Source of the DNA: Pseudomonadota bacterium
Lineage (GTDB): Bacteria > Pseudomonadota > Gammaproteobacteria > Burkholderiales > Ferrovaceae
Length of the DNA stretch: 64,000 bases
NCBI GenBank assembly: GCA_021832305.1
Contig: JAKBLB010000001.1
Location: 124,001 to 188,000, forward strand
Direction of reading: 5' to 3'
The notes beneath the pieces were generated by a model that was given only the letters and a program-made list of their open reading frames with translations, was not told the DNA's origin and did not search any database. Made by a program: the position numbers and the translations under genes. Positions within the stretch are counted from its first letter, which is position 1. Every line of letters starts with the position of its first letter. Positions 4,720-15,464 of this stretch are shown here, in pieces.

Positions 4720-5915
4720 AATCTGCCTCGCTCCAGAAGGGTCGTTCGTATTGGATGGAGGCGGTGGTCGCCGTTTTCTTTTGCTGGGGGATGAGTACCG
4801 TACTGATCGATTCCCTGGTACCCAAACTCAAGGTCCTGTTTTCCTTGGGGTATGCGGAAGTATTATTGACTCAGTTCAGTTTCTTCATTGGCTATCTGGT
4901 GTTTTCAGTTCCTGCAGGGCAAATTCTGGCGTGGTTGGGTTACGCGCGCAGCATTGCTCTGGGACTGGCGGTCGCGCTCCTGGGTTGTCTGCTGTTCATC
5001 CCCGCGACCGAGTTTCGTGAATTTCCATGGTTTTTGGGAGCGCTTTTCGTCTTGTCGGCGGGGATTACTCTGCTTCAGGTCAGCGTCAATCCCCTGGTCA
5101 TGGAACTGGGGGACTCTGCCCTTGCCCACAGTCGTCTGACGTTGGCTCAAGCCTTCAACTCCCTCGGTACGACCTTGGGTCCATTGATTGGTGCGGCAGT
5201 GATTCTGCGGCATGCAACTTTTGAGGACATGGACCCGATGCGCTGGCCTTTCCTGGCGATTGCCGTCATTTTTGGCGCGTTGTCCCTGTTGTTCTGGAAG
5301 GGACGGAATTCGCCGAATATGCCCAGGTTACAGGAATCTCCCAGTGGGGTGGATTGGCAACTCTTCAAGCGGCCCCGCTTTGCCTTTGGTTGGAGCACTC
5401 TGTTTGTCTACGTGGGCGCCGAAGTGACGTTGGGGAGTCTGATGACCAGTTATTTGATACAACCTCAGGTATTGAGCGTCAGTGCCCCCGTGGCGGGAAG
5501 TTTGGTCAGTCTTTACTGGGGCGGGGCCATGGTCGGGCGTTTCCTGGGTTCCTGGGTACTCTCCCGCTGGCCGGCGCCCTGGGTTCTGGGGGGCTGTGCT
5601 CTGGGAGCGGCGACCCTGGTACTGATCTCTTCCCTGAGTCAAGGGCATCTCGCGGCGGGAGCCCTGATTTCCGTAGGGCTATGTAACTCGATCATGTTTC
5701 CGGTCATCTTTTCGTTGACCCTGGAAGATCTGGGCGGTGATACGCCGAAGGGTTCGGGATTGCTGTGTATGGCCATTGTGGGGGGCGCGCTGATTCCTTT
5801 ACTGACGGGGACCTTGGCCGATGCCTGGGGGTTGGCCCGCGCTTTTGGAATCCCTGTGCTTTGTTATCTCATCATTGCCTCCTTTGCCTTTTTGCAAAAG
5901 AGAATGGTCCGGTGA
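4716..5915 (+). CDS. MFS sugar permease, FucP family
   Basis: 399-residue major facilitator of the FucP (fucose/glucose/galactose:H+ symporter) type, with about twelve hydrophobic segments. FucP-like features include ITLLQVSVNPLVMELG in helix 4 and LTLAQAFNSLGTTLGPLIG in helix 5. The GTG start at 4716 overlaps the glycosidase stop by four bases. The likely role is to import the monosaccharide released in the periplasm by the preceding enzyme. A terminator hairpin follows directly. Confidence 0.82.
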   Translation: MKSASLQKGRSYWMEAVVAVFFCWGMSTVLIDSLVPKLKVLFSLGYAEVLLTQFSFFIGYLVFSVPAGQILAWLGYARSIALGLAVALLGCLLFIPATEFREFPWFLGALFVLSAGITLLQVSVNPLVMELGDSALAHSRLTLAQAFNSLGTTLGPLIGAAVILRHATFEDMDPMRWPFLAIAVIFGALSLLFWKGRNSPNMPRLQESPSGVDWQLFKRPRFAFGWSTLFVYVGAEVTLGSLMTSYLIQPQVLSVSAPVAGSLVSLYWGGAMVGRFLGSWVLSRWPAPWVLGGCALGAATLVLISSLSQGHLAAGALISVGLCNSIMFPVIFSLTLEDLGGDTPKGSGLLCMAIVGGALIPLLTGTLADAWGLARAFGIPVLCYLIIASFAFLQKRMVR

Positions 5916-5946: not shown

Positions 5947-6151
5947 GGAAGGATAACCACTCATCCTTCAACACATCGGTAAATCCTCGCCGGTGAATTG
6001 ACCTGCTACCTCTAAAATGGACTTTTTTGACCAAAACCATGCGGTAATGGTTGGGATGTCACAGGAACTTCATCCTATCTTTATGAATTTGTAAAAAACT
6101 GTGTCCACAATCTCCCAGGATATTTCAATAAATACTTGGGGGGAGAACTAC

Positions 6152-8885: not shown

Positions 8886-8901
8886 ATGGTGGAGGTAAGC
8901 G
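8886..8901. repeat. attL core repeat
   Basis: ATGGTGGAGGTAAGCG, identical to 15388-15403. It is the displaced 3' end of the tRNA-Ala gene, 172 bp before the integrase start. Confidence 0.85.
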
Positions 8902-9073: not shown

Positions 9074-10345
9074 ATGCCGAAAATTGCCAAGAGCCTTGGT
9101 CCGTTGGAGGTGAGCAGACTGAGCAAGGAAGGATTCTATTCTGTGGGAGGGTGTCGAGGTCTACACCTTCGGATCACTGGCGGTTCCAAGGCGTGGGTTC
9201 TGAGGATTACGATAGGTGACAGGCGGCGTGATATTGGTTTGGGGCCGTATCCAGAAACAGGGCTTGCTGATGCCCGGAGGAAGGCGCAGGAGTTACGCGA
9301 CAAGGTTGCGGTTGGTGTTGATCCGGTGGCAGAGAGGAAAGCCAGCCAAAGCGCCCTGAAGGCTTCCCAAGCCAGGCAAGTCACTTTCAAACAGGTGGCA
9401 GGGCAGTATCTTGAAGCAAAGGCCAGCGAGAAGACAGCGCGTCATACCCAGGTCTGGCGGTCCAGTTTTGAAATGTATGTTTATCCGGTCATCGGGGATG
9501 TGCTGGTTCAGGATGTTGATCTGCCCCAAGTGGTCAAGGTATTGGAGCCGATCTGGAATACCCTCAACGATACGGCAACAAAATTGCGGGGGAGGGTTGA
9601 GGCGGTCTTGTCCATGGCGACTGTCAGGGGCTACCGAACCGGACCGAACCCGGCAGACTGGAAGGGCAACCTTGACCAATGCTTACCAATGCCCAGCAAG
9701 GTAGCGAAGGTGACCAAGCAACCCGCCTTACCCTTCCGTCAGATTCACGACTTTCTGACTGACCTTCACGAGATTGAAGGCATGGGGGCGCTGGCGCTGG
9801 AATTCGCCATTCTGTGCGCTTCTCGTTCTGGTGAAGTGAGAGGTGCCAAGTGGTCCGAGATTGATTTTCAGACCGCCACCTGGACGATACCCGCTGAGCG
9901 CATGAAGGCCAAAAGAGAACACAGGGTTCCGCTGAGTGATGCAGTTATCAAACTGCTGGAAAATCTCCCCAAAGATAACCCGCTGATGTTTCCTGCCTTG
10001 CGCGGTGGGATGCTGTCTGACATGACCATAAGCGCGGTATGTAGACGGATCAACGAGCGCAGGGAACGGGAAAAACTGGCCCCTTGGACAGACGAGAAAA
10101 GCGGTCTATGGATTGTCCCCCATGGCTTCCGTAGCACCTTCCGGGACTGGTGTAGTGAACAGACGGCGTATCCAAGGGAGGTGGCAGAAATGGCGCTGGC
10201 CCACACCATAGGCAATCAGGTTGAAGCAAGTTACAGGAGGGGTGATCTGTTCGAGAAGCGCAGGCACCTGATGCTGGCATGGGCCGAGTATTGCCAGTCA
10301 CCAGCACCAGCGGGACACGTTATCCAGATCAGGAAAGAGAAGTAA
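9074..10345 (+). CDS. int: Tyrosine integrase, P4 type
   Basis: 423-residue site-specific recombinase with the DUF4102 N-terminal arm-binding domain (about residues 5-90), a core-binding SAM-like domain (103-185) and a C-terminal catalytic domain. All catalytic residues are visible: R256 in SGEVRG, K280 in RMKAKREH, H350 and R353 in HGFRSTFRDW, H377 in ALAHTIG and nucleophile Y387 in EASYRRG. GGGGGGTGA precedes the ATG. It lies next to attL, distal to the tRNA, and would cut and join DNA at the tRNA-Ala 3' end. Confidence 0.95.
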   Translation: MPKIAKSLGPLEVSRLSKEGFYSVGGCRGLHLRITGGSKAWVLRITIGDRRRDIGLGPYPETGLADARRKAQELRDKVAVGVDPVAERKASQSALKASQARQVTFKQVAGQYLEAKASEKTARHTQVWRSSFEMYVYPVIGDVLVQDVDLPQVVKVLEPIWNTLNDTATKLRGRVEAVLSMATVRGYRTGPNPADWKGNLDQCLPMPSKVAKVTKQPALPFRQIHDFLTDLHEIEGMGALALEFAILCASRSGEVRGAKWSEIDFQTATWTIPAERMKAKREHRVPLSDAVIKLLENLPKDNPLMFPALRGGMLSDMTISAVCRRINERREREKLAPWTDEKSGLWIVPHGFRSTFRDWCSEQTAYPREVAEMALAHTIGNQVEASYRRGDLFEKRRHLMLAWAEYCQSPAPAGHVIQIRKEK

Positions 10346-10578
10346 CCAATTGTAAGTATGGTGATTTTAGAGCACTACCGTACCGTGAGCACGCTTTTGT
10401 TTGAGGTGATATGATGCGCGCAGCGGTAGCCCGAAGTAGGTCCTGAACTGGCCAGTTAGTGCAGTCCGGCGGGGTGCGGCGTCAATCGGGGAGAAAACAT
10501 GAGAGCGATTTTTCATAAAACCGCTTTTTGTGCTTTCCCTTCTTTGGTTGGCGCAAAAAGCATCTTGAAGGGCTTGCT
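10346..10578. other. Leader region upstream of the AlpA-like gene
   Basis: 233 bp between integrase and regulator. A strong GGGGAG ribosome site lies before an ATG at 10499, but that frame runs across the regulator gene in another phase and is not protein-like. In P4-like elements such regions can hold an immunity or antisense RNA. I see no definite structure. Confidence 0.35.
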
Positions 10579-10794
10579 ATGTCGACTGAAAATACTCCAT
10601 TTACCCAACTCCCGGATGCGGCTCAAGTCAAACTTGCCGTTATCTGTGCTCTGTTCGGAATCTCCAAAGCCACAGTCTGGCGCTGGTCCAAGAGCGGAAT
10701 TTTACCCACGCCACGAAAACTAAGCGCGGGGGTGACCCGGTGGAATGTTGGTGAAATCCGGGCTGTTCTAAAAAGTTTAGGGGTGGAAAAGTGA
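10579..10794 (+). CDS. AlpA-like helix-turn-helix regulator/excisionase
   Basis: 71-residue MerR-like winged-helix DNA-binding protein of the AlpA class. The helix-turn-helix is FGISKATVWRWSKSGILPTP, followed by KLSAGVTRWNVGEIRAVLKS. AlpA proteins in P4-like elements switch on integrase or act as excisionase. I chose the ATG at 10579 because family similarity starts there, though the frame extends upstream. The stop overlaps the GTG of the next small gene, suggesting one operon. Confidence 0.8.
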   Translation: MSTENTPFTQLPDAAQVKLAVICALFGISKATVWRWSKSGILPTPRKLSAGVTRWNVGEIRAVLKSLGVEK

Positions 10795-10967
10795 GCGGCC
10801 CCAAAGGAAACGCCACCGGGGAGGGTGGCGCGGGTACTTCTCAAAAAACTCCAGTCCATTTTAGCACTCTTGACACCTGGATATACCTCCTTTTGACCTT
10901 GAATTGGATCGTCTTTGCTTTTCTGTTTGGCGACCTGGTTCTGTATTATCTTGGGTGGATGTCATGA
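10791..10967 (+). CDS. Small single-pass membrane protein (58 aa)
   Basis: A 58-codon frame from GTG at 10791 to TGA at 10967. It begins MSGPKGNATGEGGAGTSQ, a polar Gly-rich head. A strongly hydrophobic stretch with TWIYLLLTLNWIVFAFLFGD follows, then LVLYYLGWMS. It overlaps the regulator stop by 4 bp (GTGA) and the next gene's ATG by 4 bp (ATGA), which strongly suggests a translated, coupled gene. Its 5' part also holds a GC-rich hairpin (CGCCACC and its complement, 10811-10830). No family recognised. Confidence 0.6.
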   Translation: MSGPKGNATGEGGAGTSQKTPVHFSTLDTWIYLLLTLNWIVFAFLFGDLVLYYLGWMS

Positions 10968-11389
10968 ATGCGCAAGAGTTTTTGATGCGCTTGGATCGGG
11001 TCAAGCAGACTGGCTCTGGCCGATGGATGACAAAGTGTCCGGCTCATGACGATAAAGGCCCTTCACTTTCGGTTACGGAAGCCCAGGATGGGAAAATTCT
11101 CCTCCACTGTTTTGCAGGATGTGGGGCGCAAGAGATCATGCAGGCCCTTGGTTTGGAATTGGCCGACCTTTTTCCTGAAAAACTTTCGTTCAACCCCGGA
11201 CGCGCCCAAAGATTCCCAGCCCGTGAAATTTTGATGGCGCTGGCTTCTGAAATCGAGATAGCGGCTTTGTTGATCCTCCGCTGGATCGATCCTGATCGTG
11301 ACTGGAAACCGGATCACTATGACCGCCTGTTACTGAGTAACTCCCGAATCCAGAATGCGGTAAATATGCTGGGAGGTCATCATGGATAA
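10964..11389 (+). CDS. CHC2-type zinc-finger primase-like protein
   Basis: 141-residue protein whose N-terminal half matches the DnaG/P4 primase zinc-binding domain: TKCPAHDDKGPSLSV supplies C25 and H28, LLHCFAGCG supplies C49 and C53. No TOPRIM catalytic domain follows; the C-terminal half is unassigned. The ATG at 10964 has GGTGGA upstream, and the frame's upstream extension is the 58-residue gene in another phase. It would recognise template DNA for element replication together with the DUF3987 protein encoded next, whose start it overlaps. Confidence 0.8.
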   Translation: MNAQEFLMRLDRVKQTGSGRWMTKCPAHDDKGPSLSVTEAQDGKILLHCFAGCGAQEIMQALGLELADLFPEKLSFNPGRAQRFPAREILMALASEIEIAALLILRWIDPDRDWKPDHYDRLLLSNSRIQNAVNMLGGHHG

Positions 11390-12956
11390 TCTCACACTTG
11401 AGCAGCGTAACGTTCTGGATTACTCGCGGCCAGCACCAGCGAATATCCTGGATACTATGCGATCCGCTTCAGAATCACTCAGGAGCGAACCTGAGCCACT
11501 GCGCGCAACCTTATCACCTGCGGAGCCTTATCCCGTAGATGCGCTCGGAAACGTGCTGGGCACTGCTGCAAAGGCAATTCACGAGTCTGTCAAAGCACCT
11601 CTGGCGCTCTGTTGTCAGAGTGTACTGGCGGCGGCATCACTGGCGGCTCAAGCGCACTTTGATGTGCTGTTGCCGTGGGGCGAGCGGAAACCGTTGTCAT
11701 TATTTCTGCTGACTGTTGGCGAGTCCGGCGAAAGGAAAACCGGCGTTGATGACCTCGTACTCGGAGCCGCAAAAGTTCAGGAACGCGCAGCCATGGAAGG
11801 CTACGCAGAGGACTTGAAACTTTATCAGGAGGAACTCGCGTCATGGAATCAAGCGACCGAGGCAGCACGGAAGGCGGTGACCAACGGGAAAAAAGGCACG
11901 GTAACAGCACGCGAGGTTCAAGTAGCCGTGGGGCGATGCGGCGATAAACCAGAAGCGCCAATAGTTCCACTTCGATTCATGACTGATCCTACCGTTGAGG
12001 GCATGTACAAACAATTGGTACAGGGGCAGCCCAGTGTCGCGCTCTTTTCTGACGAGGGCGGCTTGTTGATCGGCGGACATGCTCTAAACTCTGATAACGC
12101 GCTCAAGACGATGGCGCGCTGGTGCAAACTTTGGGATGGATCACCTTTTGATAGAGTCCGAGCCGGAGATGGCGCTGGCGTTTTGTATGGGCGGCGGATG
12201 GCTTTCCACCAGTTGGCACAGCCGGACGTTATGGCTACGCTCTTATCTGATCGTATGGCGAACGGTCAAGGACTGCTTGCCCGCTGTCTTGTTGCATGGC
12301 CTGACTCAACAATCGGCACGCGTCACATTAAGGCGTATGAATGGCCCGGTAATCACCCCGCCCTCAAAAGGCTGTTTGCTGTATTCAAAGGGCTGATGGA
12401 AGCCAAACCAAGATCAGGGAAATCCGAACAAGAACTTGATCCTGTAGAACTGCCGCTGACCGATGATGCAAAGTCTCTAGCAGTCGCGGCTAACAATCAG
12501 TTTGAAACCCTGATGGCACCCGGCGCTGAACTTGCAGAACTTCGGGACCGCACCAGCAAGGCGGTTGAAAATGCTTGTCGTATCGCTGGTGTACTCGCGG
12601 TGATCGAACAAGGTTTGTCGGTTCGAGAGATTGGCGAGGACCACCTTGGGCGCGCCCTGGTACTGGTGCAATGGTATTTAAAGGAAACTTTGCGCATCAA
12701 AACCATGGCACAGGTTCCGGCTGAGATCACGGACGCAGAGGCCCTCATGCGCTGGCTACAGGGCCGGAATATGAGGCAGTTTTGCTCTGTTCAGGTTATG
12801 CAAGGCGGCCCAAATCGACTGCGCTCCAAATCAACCTTTGAAGCGGCTATCAAGGTTTTGGGTGAGGGTGGGTATGTTGGCCGGCTTCCAGATGGCCAAG
12901 TGATTGACGGAAAATCCAGGCGTCTAAGTTGGGAGGTATTTCACTATGTGGTTTGA
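11382..12956 (+). CDS. DUF3987 P-loop ATPase, probable replication protein
   Basis: 524-residue protein of the DUF3987 (YfjI-like) family, common in integrative elements beside primase fragments. The variant Walker A is GESGERKT (113-120), where Arg replaces the usual Gly. The acidic FSDEGG (222-227) is a likely Walker B. The C-terminal part (CSVQVMQGGPNRLRSKSTFE) looks like a winged helix. It overlaps the primase gene by 8 bp and the next gene by 11 bp. The likely role is a helicase or origin-processing ATPase for the excised element; this is inferred, not shown. Confidence 0.8.
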   Translation: MDNLTLEQRNVLDYSRPAPANILDTMRSASESLRSEPEPLRATLSPAEPYPVDALGNVLGTAAKAIHESVKAPLALCCQSVLAAASLAAQAHFDVLLPWGERKPLSLFLLTVGESGERKTGVDDLVLGAAKVQERAAMEGYAEDLKLYQEELASWNQATEAARKAVTNGKKGTVTAREVQVAVGRCGDKPEAPIVPLRFMTDPTVEGMYKQLVQGQPSVALFSDEGGLLIGGHALNSDNALKTMARWCKLWDGSPFDRVRAGDGAGVLYGRRMAFHQLAQPDVMATLLSDRMANGQGLLARCLVAWPDSTIGTRHIKAYEWPGNHPALKRLFAVFKGLMEAKPRSGKSEQELDPVELPLTDDAKSLAVAANNQFETLMAPGAELAELRDRTSKAVENACRIAGVLAVIEQGLSVREIGEDHLGRALVLVQWYLKETLRIKTMAQVPAEITDAEALMRWLQGRNMRQFCSVQVMQGGPNRLRSKSTFEAAIKVLGEGGYVGRLPDGQVIDGKSRRLSWEVFHYVV

Positions 12957-13371
12957 TCCCGCAGAACTTCTCAAGAAATCAGAACCCGCCCCCCTTGCTA
13001 TTCCTGCTATTCCGCTATTCGCTGGGGGGGAGCCAGAGGTAAACGAGGGGGAAAATAGCAAAATAGCAGAAATAGCAGACCCCCCCGATTCTGAAAACTT
13101 GGTTTCTGCCCCATCCAATGACGAAGCCTGGCGGGATGAACTTGCGGCCCAACTCGAGGCGAATCCTGAACTTCGGTACGTTTACCGTGCCGGGTTACCC
13201 GAGGGCGGTTTGGTCAAACTGTACTTTGCAGTCAGGGACGTGGCCACGGCTTACTTTACGATCCCAGCGGAGCGGTACGACCCGATCACGGCCATGATGG
13301 AACTGTCACGACTGGCAGATCAGCATTACCCGGCAGTTGATCCACACCCTTACGCGGACCCTTTGAGGTGA
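12946..13371 (+). CDS. Element protein of unknown function
   Basis: 141 residues, no family recognised. The N-terminal ~65 residues are Pro/Glu-rich and look disordered (SEPAPLAIPAIPLFAGG, then an acidic run). The rest looks folded: WRDELAAQLEANPELRYVYR, then LVKLYFAVRDVATAYFTIP. The 11-bp overlap with the DUF3987 gene supports translation in the same operon. An accessory replication or anti-host role is possible but unsupported. Confidence 0.65.
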   Translation: MWFDPAELLKKSEPAPLAIPAIPLFAGGEPEVNEGENSKIAEIADPPDSENLVSAPSNDEAWRDELAAQLEANPELRYVYRAGLPEGGLVKLYFAVRDVATAYFTIPAERYDPITAMMELSRLADQHYPAVDPHPYADPLR

Positions 13372-13417: not shown

Positions 13418-13646
13418 TGGATAAATGGTTATCCACTCTCACGGTTTATGGATATAATATTATCCATACTCCAATTGGACACCGAGCATGAGATACCACA
13501 TCACTGTCACCCGGAACGGAACCAGCACCAGAACCACGGTCAGCATGGATAAAACCTTATCCGGTCTGCTGGCGGCTTCACTTGGGAAGGATGGACTGCT
13601 GGCGGATCACGGAACAGTCAGGGCATGGCTGGATAACCATTTATCC
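13418..13646. repeat. Four GGATAA-N4-TTATCC palindromes
   Basis: Sites at 13419-13434 (spacer ATGG), 13450-13465 (GGATAT-AATA-TTATCC, one mismatch), 13547-13562 (spacer AACC) and 13631-13646 (spacer CCAT). Two lie upstream of the gene starting at 13488 and two inside it. Site 2 contains TATAAT at 13453-13458, so a bound protein would cover a promoter. Start-to-start distances are 31, 97 and 84 bp. They are probably binding sites for an element-coded dimeric protein. Confidence 0.8.
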
Positions 13647-13796
13647 GAATGGGCGGCGTTTGATCCGCTCTTGCCAGTTTCCAGACAAGTTACGCGCCTG
13701 GCGCTGTTGCGTATCGCAAGACCGGAATATGTTGACGCCCTGACGGCTCCAGAGGCCCCCAGCGGCGTTATTCATGGCGCGGTCAGCAAGAGGTAG
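13488..13796 (+). CDS. Element protein of unknown function, holds two palindromes
   Basis: 102 residues starting MRYHITVTRNGTSTRTTVSM, with an Arg-rich segment VSRQVTRLALLRIARPEY near the end that could contact DNA. The two internal palindromes encode MDKTLS and LDNHLS, a repeated peptide pattern. With two further sites over the promoter region, autoregulation by this protein or a neighbour is plausible. It may be a ribbon-helix-helix type regulator, but I cannot confirm the fold. It begins a new transcription unit after a 116-bp gap. Confidence 0.65.
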   Translation: MRYHITVTRNGTSTRTTVSMDKTLSGLLAASLGKDGLLADHGTVRAWLDNHLSEWAAFDPLLPVSRQVTRLALLRIARPEYVDALTAPEAPSGVIHGAVSKR

Positions 13797-13798
13797 CC

Positions 13799-14068
13799 AT
13801 GCACACGAAACCAAAAATGCTTGAAACCGGCTCGGTAGTGGAATTGCAGCGCGGCCCTACCCCCCCAATTCGGCTTCACACCTTGGACGATTTACGGCTG
13901 GAAATGGCAAGGGTTTACCGCGAGATGCGATCCGGCGTTATCGATCCGCAAGACGGCACCCGACTGGCTTACGTCCTCGGTCAGATGGTTAGGCTTTTTG
14001 AACAAAGCGCCCAGGAACGACGACTAGAGGCAATCGAACAAACGCTTTCCCAAAGGACCACGCCGTGA
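13799..14068 (+). CDS. Element protein of unknown function (89 aa)
   Basis: 89 residues. The centre (LDDLRLEMARVYREMRSGVI, then YVLGQMVRLFEQSAQERRL) is strongly helical and resembles small accessory proteins seen in integrative elements and phages. It starts two bases after the preceding stop and overlaps the next gene by GTGA. No named family recognised. Confidence 0.65.
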   Translation: MHTKPKMLETGSVVELQRGPTPPIRLHTLDDLRLEMARVYREMRSGVIDPQDGTRLAYVLGQMVRLFEQSAQERRLEAIEQTLSQRTTP

Positions 14069-14601
14069 AAAACCCCATCGCAAAACTTTATGAAAAGTTG
14101 ACCCCTTCCGAACTGGCTACCGTCGCCCTCAAGCACCTATACCACGGGGACAATGACGAGGCAGGACGCGTGGCCCTCATGGTGCCCAGGGTTCATTACA
14201 TCGGTAACGACCTTGCTTACATGCAGAAGGTACGGGGGTTCATGGGCATGGTGGACGACTGGGCTACACTGGTCTGGAAGGCTCGTTACCAGCGGGAAAA
14301 AACCTTTTCTCAGGCATTGTCGATCGTCATACACCCGAGCGAAGACCCAGAAGGGGAAATACTCTGTCGGATAAAAAATCGTCTGGTGAAATGGGAATCC
14401 GACTTGATGGCGCTCGACGATGCCCTGGAGTCCGTATGCGCGTCGGCTGGCGTTGATCCTGATGGGGTGAGGGCGCTCCATGGCATTGAACGTTTTGAGC
14501 CGTTGGAACCTTCCCCAGGCGAACCGAGAACAGAAGCCGACATAGAGACGCTGGGCTGGGCAATCCAAACCTTGACGCAATGCCTTGGTAGAAGCATTTA
14601 A
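14065..14601 (+). CDS. Element protein of unknown function (178 aa)
   Basis: 178 residues starting MKNPIAKLYEKLTPSELATV from a GTG that overlaps the previous stop. It appears all-helical, with HLYHGDNDEAGRVALMVPRV and a C-terminal DIETLGWAIQTLTQCLGRS. No membrane segment, signal peptide or known motif. It is the last gene of the element before the noncoding repeat tract and is followed by a terminator-like palindrome. Function unknown. Confidence 0.65.
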   Translation: MKNPIAKLYEKLTPSELATVALKHLYHGDNDEAGRVALMVPRVHYIGNDLAYMQKVRGFMGMVDDWATLVWKARYQREKTFSQALSIVIHPSEDPEGEILCRIKNRLVKWESDLMALDDALESVCASAGVDPDGVRALHGIERFEPLEPSPGEPRTEADIETLGWAIQTLTQCLGRSI

Positions 14602-14626
14602 CCACCGCGCTGTCTGATGCACCCGA

Positions 14627-14658
14627 AAAGGGGCAATATTGCCCCTTTATTTTATCTA
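14627..14658 (+). terminator. Perfect 22-bp palindrome, probable terminator
   Basis: AAAGGGGC, loop AATATT, GCCCCTTT, then a T-rich tract, 25 bp after the last element gene. The core GGGGCAATATTGCCCC is also the first of four related inverted repeats in this tract, so it may serve two roles. Confidence 0.7.
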
Positions 14659-14738
14659 GTGTTTTCCGGTACTTAGCGGTAATCCAATAGACAATTGACT
14701 TTTGCATTTTCGCTATCAGGTGGCGAAGAAAAGCCGAT

Positions 14739-15147
14739 CAAGAGGCAATATTGCCCCTTGAAACAAGGACCATATCTGACCGATTTAGTGAACAAATTTA
14801 CAAGATAAAATCCGTTTCTAACCATATGGTTGAAGTGAAATCGAGTTTGTCCGTAGCGAAAAAATAGCGAACAGTTTCAAGCCCGTCTGCTCTGTTGCGG
14901 GAAGGGTACGATGTGCGCTTTGATACTGTCTGCCAAGTCCCCCCGAGAGCGCCAGCACAGCACGCGTGACCGCTCAAGCCCACGGTGGAAACCGGAATGC
15001 CGAGCAAGTGGCAATTTTGCCACTTGAAACTCTCTATTAAAATCAATTTGTTACAGCATGAAAATTGGATATTGCGGAAATTGTGGGCGACCGCTCAAGC
15101 CCATGGTGGAGACAGAAAAGCGGATCAAGAGGCGAAATCACCTCTTG
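14739..15147. repeat. Family of related 22-bp inverted repeats
   Basis: Three elements of the form CAAGNGGCAA, then TTGCCNCTTG: 14739-14760 (one mismatch between arms), 15005-15026 (perfect 10-bp arms) and 15126-15147 (arms CAAGAGG/CCTCTTG). The palindrome at 14627-14648 is a fourth relative. They lie 112, 266 and 121 bp apart in a gene-free tract beside attR. Candidates: cis-replication region, packaging signal or regulatory binding sites. Confidence 0.75.
14968..15070. repeat. ~103-bp direct repeat, copy A
   Basis: Starts GACCGCTCAAGCCCACGGTG, contains the inverted repeat at 15005-15026 and ends with GTTACAGC and a TGGAT motif. It is about 80% identical by eye to copy B, 121 bp downstream. 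Confidence 0.75.
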
Positions 15148-15190
15148 AAACTACCCTATTAAATCAATCAGTTACAGCCTGAAAATGGAT
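15089..15190. repeat. ~102-bp direct repeat, copy B
   Basis: Starts GACCGCTCAAGCCCATGGTG. The inverted repeat inside (15126-15147) has changed in both arms, so the hairpin is kept while its bases differ from copy A. That is paired change rather than simple drift. Confidence 0.75.
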
Positions 15191-15387: not shown

Positions 15388-15388
15388 A

Positions 15389-15464
<76 letters not shown>

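Follow-up and report, generated by a model that had tools for sequence, protein, structure and literature searches.

In Escherichia coli, the galR gene is not part of the gal operon. CopG-type ribbon-helix-helix plasmid repressors are small proteins with a strand-helix-helix order that autorepress by covering their promoter, and the operators of the KorA and KorB repressors, which lie both at the repressors' own promoter and at other places on the replicon, have sequences that differ from GGATA-N6-TATCC. GalR, a LacI-family protein, has in gal two 16-bp operators, O_E and the internal O_I, which lie 113 bp apart with one of them inside galE, according to the account in PMC4693257, and KorA and KorB are described as regulators encoded by the IncP-1 plasmid RK2 (PMC11790492).

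The array described here, found in a 64-kb stretch of a Ferrovum genome (the window), can be compared with each of these. As in gal, 16-bp sites lie near a putative promoter and in a coding region, 96 to 108 bp apart in Ferrovum and four Thiothrix plasmids instead of 113 bp. Unlike in gal, the gene of the candidate regulator itself carries a site, and its 102-residue product has no family match, whereas GalR belongs to the LacI family. The extra sites that we found on Thiothrix plasmids recall KorA and KorB, but no KorA, KorB or ParB family was detected in Pfam and NCBIfam scans of 13 members. With CopG, the protein shares its small size and, in its structural model, the strand-helix-helix order; it differs by a beta-hairpin followed by four helices and by having no sequence, profile or fold match.

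The palindrome array and the element that carries it

The array comprises four palindromes that share their arms, with one base differing, and spans 228 bp (Table 1). A TATAAT -10-like box lies within site 2 at 13453-13458, and the spacings between successive sites are 31, 97 and 84 bp. The palindromes, the box, the spacings and the peptides encoded by sites 3 and 4 had been described in a sequence-only reading of the window, and all were recovered here; its remark that the spacings of 31 and 84 bp are close to whole helical turns is correct, and it placed the start of the array at 13418, one base before the true start at 13419. A further symmetry, absent from that reading, is that site 4 is the exact reverse complement of site 1.

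Table 1. Features of the array and of the surrounding element, in window positions
Feature	Positions	Strand	Sequence or remark
Left 16-bp direct repeat, putative att	8886..8901	+	ATGGTGGAGGTAAGCG
Tyrosine integrase	9074..10345	+	family/profile matches
AlpA / excisionase-like HTH protein	10528..10794	+	below Pfam cut-offs; phrog_66
CHC2 zinc-finger, primase-like protein	10904..11389	+	family/profile matches
DUF3987 / helicase-like protein	11382..12956	+	E 8.3e-91; phrog_2373
141-aa ORF, 5' of array	12946..13371	+	ORF list
Site 1	13419..13434	.	GGATAAATGGTTATCC
Site 2	13450..13465	.	GGATATAATATTATCC, one arm base differs
102-aa protein, proposed autoregulator that would bind sites 1-4	13488..13796	+	ORF list
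Site 3, intragenic	13547..13562	.	GGATAAAACCTTATCC, encodes MDKTLS
Site 4, intragenic	13631..13646	.	GGATAACCATTTATCC, encodes LDNHLS
89-aa ORF, next same-direction gene	13799..14068	+	similar ORFs in C31, L013; none listed in L014
178-aa ORF	14065..14601	+	similar ORFs in C31 and L013 (170 aa)
Right 16-bp direct repeat	15388..15403	+	at 3' end of tRNA-Ala(GGC)
tRNA-Ala(GGC)	15389-15464	-

A loose scan of the 64 kb, allowing two mismatches, returned 5 sites against a mean of 1.64 in 100 shuffles, 3 of which reached at least 5; this is weak evidence for a non-chance array. Genome-wide, the motif is uncommon: the host genome (Ferrovum, 2.12 Mb; 2,121,300 bases, 53 contigs) has six exact copies of GGATAAN4TTATCC, three in the window element and three in a second element copy on contig C31, with none elsewhere, and the site-2 variant is present in both copies. 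Because the innermost arm base differs in some arms of two related Ferrovum loci (L013 and L014), the core was set at GGATA-N6-TATCC. Of the 11 core matches in the host genome, 8 lie in the two element copies. The 6.4-kb element stretch holds 4, compared with 0.0024 expected under a first-order Markov model, and ten elements and plasmids together hold 49 sites, compared with Markov expectations of 0.0003 to 0.0083 each. We conclude that the four palindromes are a real, conserved, element-borne DNA element with the core GGATA-N6-TATCC.

The gene for the 102-residue protein sits in a 6.5-kb integrative element at tRNA-Ala, flanked by a 16-bp direct repeat. The copy on C31 (locus L006) adjoins a different tRNA-Ala gene, tRNA-Ala(CGC), and a test for att repeats gave no clear repeat there, as against the 16-bp repeat in the window. 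Blocks corresponding to the integrase, the primase-like protein and the 102-residue module are about 94 to 99% identical in DNA between the two copies, and another gene takes the DUF3987 position. A 38-nt repeat built around a palindromic core (e.g. AAGTGGCAATTTTGCCACTT, AAGAGGCGAAATCACCTCTT) occurs four times in the noncoding 3' end of the window element (14615-15151), and some of its arms change together; similar palindromes are found in the C31 copy (L006:9792-9817 and 9905-9928). In an Rfam scan, only the tRNA matched at gathering score.

Relatives of the gene and the distribution of the sites

The gene was found in three of eight Ferrovum genomes, three of the eight being only 73 to 86% complete: the host, with two copies, G006 (locus L013, 83%) and G004 (strain P3G; locus L014, 73%), which also has a tandem paralog. 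Sites accompany each of the four Ferrovum gene copies and lie at 5909, 5951, 6057 and 6141 in L013 and at 5964, 6060 and 6144 in L014; an extra site at 5598 precedes the P3G tandem paralog, which has this upstream site and no intragenic core. Site 1 has counterparts in the C31 copy and in L013, where it is 11 bp further upstream, and the core of site 4 is kept in all four copies, being absent from that place in Thiothrix and in the Burkholderiales genome G279. Clusters of GGATA-N6-TATCC occur in the three Ferrovum genomes with the gene; the five genomes without it have 0 to 5 sites, each on a separate contig, and no clusters.

Our genome searches covered 60 relatives and the host's own genome, 399 genomes of the order, 12 of the G279 genus and family, and 369 and 360 of the class; these samples are partial, and a genome often had more candidates than the 12 to 13 that were scored. 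Among the scored candidates, a profile search of the 399 order genomes yielded one more credible homolog, that of G279, whose protein is 25 to 28% identical to the window protein. In an IS21-like element (L032:3507-6249), its gene follows istA- and istB-like ORFs as the third ORF, and plasmid matches to this region carry IS21 annotation. At the site-3 codons the gene holds GGATAACTTCTTATCC. The 6.1-Mb genome has three GGATA-N6-TATCC matches, one in the gene, one in istA of the same element and one elsewhere; the gene has one intragenic site and no upstream pair. This arrangement would agree with transcription from the ist promoter, in which case the single intragenic site would have to act. 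A second, frameshifted G279 copy (contig C25) keeps only a two-mismatch remnant of the site.

When plasmids were searched with the G279 protein, ten records were returned at E<=10, seven of which were judged relatives: five from Thiothrix (E 1e-4 to 4e-4), one from Burkholderia anthina (0.02) and one from Allochromatium tepidum (1), the last two being weak as relatives on these E values. The other three (response regulator, TetR and Rep genes) were rejected and served as controls, together with one match from another search; none of the four has a site. The Thiothrix genes were thus found through protein similarity, independently of the motif. The protein of plasmid pTunz4 is 36% identical to the window protein over 89 residues. 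Each of the five Thiothrix genes is preceded by two sites, the second with TATAAT in it, and contains one at +71, on the codons of site 3. Four of the five have a further site across their own stop codon, and in pTunz7 a 68-aa ORF lies between the upstream sites and the gene. The pTunz4 record (L044, NZ_CP072799.1) apparently consists of two head-to-tail copies of a 9,114-bp unit, judging from the spacing of features and sites. B. anthina has upstream sites only, and Allochromatium has three intragenic sites at codons other than those of site 3.

Other searches returned no additional members. No relative was found in plasmid searches at E 1e-5 or in phage and viral searches, and among the IMG/VR pattern matches (a pair in L050 and 11 others) none resembles the family gene by eye. 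The L050 pair (L050:8906-8953) consists of two GGATA-N6-TATCC sites that are mutual reverse complements and make up a single inverted repeat; no family gene was seen in the vicinity. The site-3 codon pattern was found only in G279 among 398 order genomes (a sample that does not include the host genome), and the pattern of the promoter pair was found only in the host's own genome among 369 genomes of the phylum. Six weak matches (G050, G075, G340, G122, G511 and G593), all without a site, were not accepted as relatives. That in G122 is an ABC-transporter ORF, that in G075 lies within a long ORF, and that in G340 is a ribbon-helix-helix-looking ORF; the match in G050 (E 7e-4) contains four in-frame TGA codons and may be a decayed relative.

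All 12 gene loci, a count that leaves out the P3G tandem paralog and the decayed G279 copy, have one to four GATA-N6-TATC sites between -350 and +320, and none of the 10 control loci has any. Similar sites lie just upstream of the start codon in 11 of the 12, G279 being the exception. From ORF lists and annotation, the 102-residue family appears to be the sole gene common to the carriers. Judged by this comparison, the sites travel with the gene across islands, plasmids and an IS21-like element, and we consider it probable that sites 1 to 4 are operators of the adjacent 102-residue protein, forming an autoregulatory array.

If the palindromes were instead the sites of another factor, such as a host regulator, the AlpA-like protein or DnaA, they would merely lie near the gene. 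DnaA comes into question because the arm TTATCC resembles part of the DnaA box, which is TTATCCACA, and 18 of 98 arms differ from it by a single base; the element also encodes an AlpA-like protein. However, none of the 98 arms matches TTATCCACA, the arms conserve neither its first base (T in 41 of 98) nor its last two, and the element contains no exact TTATCCACA, TTATACACA or TTATCCAAA. Nor do the annotations of the stretches examined in Thiothrix, Burkholderia and Allochromatium list an AlpA-like gene, and the Ferrovum genomes without the gene lack clusters. Taken together, these points make another factor quite improbable.

The distribution along whole replicons raises a different possibility. 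Four Thiothrix plasmids of 12 to 16 kb have 6 to 7 GATA-N6-TATC sites each, and pTunz4 has 14 in its duplicated unit, the reversed-pattern control giving 0. Two to four sites per plasmid (or unit) are distant from the gene, some of them at matching places across plasmids, one such place being 3' of rep in an unrelated ORF. This ORF, present on four Thiothrix plasmids (L044:2965-3279, with counterparts in L045, L046 and L047), contains a GGATAAAACYGTATCC site and for that reason encodes APMDKTVS. The distant sites go beyond simple autoregulation and may reflect a wider regulon or an organising role. An iteron-like origin, which the sequence-only reading had offered beside the operator array, or replicon-wide sites for partition or silencing to which the protein would bind, autoregulation being a secondary effect, could account for such a spread. 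Yet most sites are at the gene in Ferrovum, in B. anthina (4+4 of 9 GATA-N6-TATC sites on a 152-kb plasmid) and in Allochromatium pAt1 (4 of 7 on 176 kb). Moreover, the units are palindromes and not direct iterons, their spacing varies (31, 42, 28 and 29 bp), the gene adjoining the array is not a rep gene, and the carriers differ in their replication genes, that of G279 being an IS21-like element. We therefore regard an origin or a primarily organising array as unlikely, if deserving of some weight. The array follows the 102-residue gene and not the element's replication genes; of the two suggestions made earlier, the operator array is well supported by the comparison and the iteron-like origin is not supported.

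Constraint on the intragenic sites

An intragenic site occupies the same codons in Ferrovum (4 copies), Thiothrix (5) and G279, where the peptides are MDKTLS, LDKILS and LDNFLS. Given the peptide and the local codon usage (tables of 10,773, 3,143 and 9,001 codons from long ORFs), the chance of the motif is 0.0094 for site 3, 0.0068 for site 4, 0.0016 in G279 and 0.0100 in Thiothrix. Residues shared by the window and pTunz4 proteins use the same codon in 4 of 4 cases at site 3 and in 5 of 25 elsewhere; the corresponding counts are 3 of 3 versus 6 of 18 for the window and G279, and 3 of 3 versus 10 of 19 for G279 and pTunz4. Within Ferrovum there is little contrast (5/5 versus 51/69 for the window and L013, 3/5 versus 30/55 for the window and P3G), and there is no such conservation of the site-3 codons in Allochromatium (1/3) or B. 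anthina (0/1). Had the motif been lost while its flanking codons were kept, a role for the DNA would be doubtful; between Ferrovum, Thiothrix and G279 we observed the opposite, the site-3 codons being kept while the flanks diverge, although the contrast is weak within Ferrovum. Site 4 of P3G reads MDTSIS, TATCC being preserved there through an ATA codon, which accounts for 7.6% of Ile codons. Read from these comparisons, a signal is held at one intragenic spot while most of the surrounding protein has changed.

Alternatively, sites 3 and 4 might simply reflect conservation of a peptide, xDKxLS, with no signal in the DNA at all. This peptide maps to the predicted strand-helix junction of the AlphaFold model and is similar in relatives, and within Ferrovum the site-3 codons are no better kept than others. 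Against this, the distant groups keep their codon choice beyond what the peptide specifies and use unlikely codons, the core stays while the peptide changes to MDTSIS, and the unrelated Thiothrix ORF gains MDKTVS at a site, all of which leaves the peptide explanation with hardly any probability.

A role as RNA hairpins in the mRNA, with a 5- to 6-bp stem and a 4- to 6-nt loop, strikes us as very improbable. Every site could fold in this way, sites 3 and 4 are transcribed, and two Allochromatium sites have a changed yet still pairing outer pair (AGATA..TATCT and TGATA..TATCA). Sites 1 and 2 would nevertheless be outside the transcript because they precede or contain the -10-like box, the inner bases pair in just 19, 15 and 18 of 49 sites, the outer base is unpaired in further Allochromatium sites, and the tRNA was the sole Rfam match. 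Because the outer five pairs are set by the search pattern itself, the 49-site set carries no information on covariation there.

A model for the 102-residue protein and its probable operators

Returning to the reading of the array as operators of the 102-residue protein, the placement around the TATAAT box is recurrent. The second upstream site contains TATAAT (GGATATAATNNTATCC) in the window, L006, L013 and five Thiothrix plasmids, that is, in three of the four Ferrovum copies and in every one of the five from Thiothrix (8 of 9), L014 of P3G having TAAAAT. The TTATCC that forms the right arm of site 1 in the window is 18 bp upstream of TATAAT, at the place expected of a -35 hexamer, which it matches at 3 of 6 positions; in Thiothrix, a TTGTAT inside site 1 lies 17 bp before TATAAT in four plasmids and 18 bp before it in pTunz7. 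A promoter scan returned no consensus promoter, which implies that any promoter here is weak or depends on help, if there is one at all. The distance from site 2 to site 3 is 97, 97, 106 and 96 bp in Ferrovum and 107 to 108 bp in four Thiothrix plasmids, so that the values 96, 97, 106, 107 and 108 bp differ by about one helical turn; Allochromatium (132 bp) and pTunz7 (314 bp, with the small ORF inserted) fall outside this pattern.

We propose the following model. A dimer of the 102-residue protein would read the two GGATA half-sites of a palindrome. Bound at sites 1 and 2, such dimers would cover the presumed promoter, from the -35 position to the -10 box, and exclude RNA polymerase. The intragenic sites 3 and 4, 97 and 181 bp past site 2, would hold further dimers, which could either bridge back to the promoter sites in a loop of the GalR O_E/O_I type or hinder elongation. 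In this way, the protein would limit its own level and that of the downstream genes.

The protein itself has no family match in Pfam, NCBIfam, PHROGs or PADLOC. Its AlphaFold model, built from four sequences (mean pLDDT 84.3, pTM 0.74), predicts the beta-hairpin and four helices mentioned above. No known DNA-binding fold was recognised: Foldseek searches of PDB and BFVD gave no match at E<=0.001, and a VIA fold search gave a best Z of 4.3. PDB sequence searches gave no true match, one returning two chance matches at E 0.35 and 1.1 and another none. An hhalign comparison with a ribbon-helix-helix family from the same plasmids also gave no match, and neither did the Pfam ribbon-helix-helix families. 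The marginal profile match in G340 (E 0.0097) is, judged by eye, a ribbon-helix-helix-looking ORF adjoining a ParA-like ORF (L019, ORF 1156-1629), a possible lead on the family fold.

One residue offers a hint as to recognition. Immediately ahead of Thr-Thr in the second strand, the proteins of Ferrovum, Thiothrix and G279 have Arg, and the outer G-C pair of their sites is fixed; B. anthina has Lys at this position and Allochromatium has Ala, and in their sites the outer base varies. The pattern, across five lineages only, suggests that this Arg contacts the outer guanine.

Among the papers listed by a literature search, none was seen to treat the motif or the 102-residue family, and a literal-pattern query gave 0 results. 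With these data, an unannotated protein family gains a probable binding site, and a natural case comes into view in which a probable regulatory DNA site is kept in coding sequence across proteins that are only 25 to 39% identical. The sites shape peptides, as in DKMLSDKMLS of Allochromatium and MDKTVS of the unrelated Thiothrix ORF. More broadly, and tentatively, since we rate this wider picture as possible but short of an even chance, the proteins may form an undescribed family of mobile-element regulators with their own operator hard-wired into the coding sequence at a strand-helix junction. Gene and operator would then be one unit that moves between islands, plasmids and transposons and dictates the peptide, and on small plasmids the same protein would read replicon-spread sites as a regulator or organiser. 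A self-carried operator, if true, would explain how autoregulation survives each transfer.
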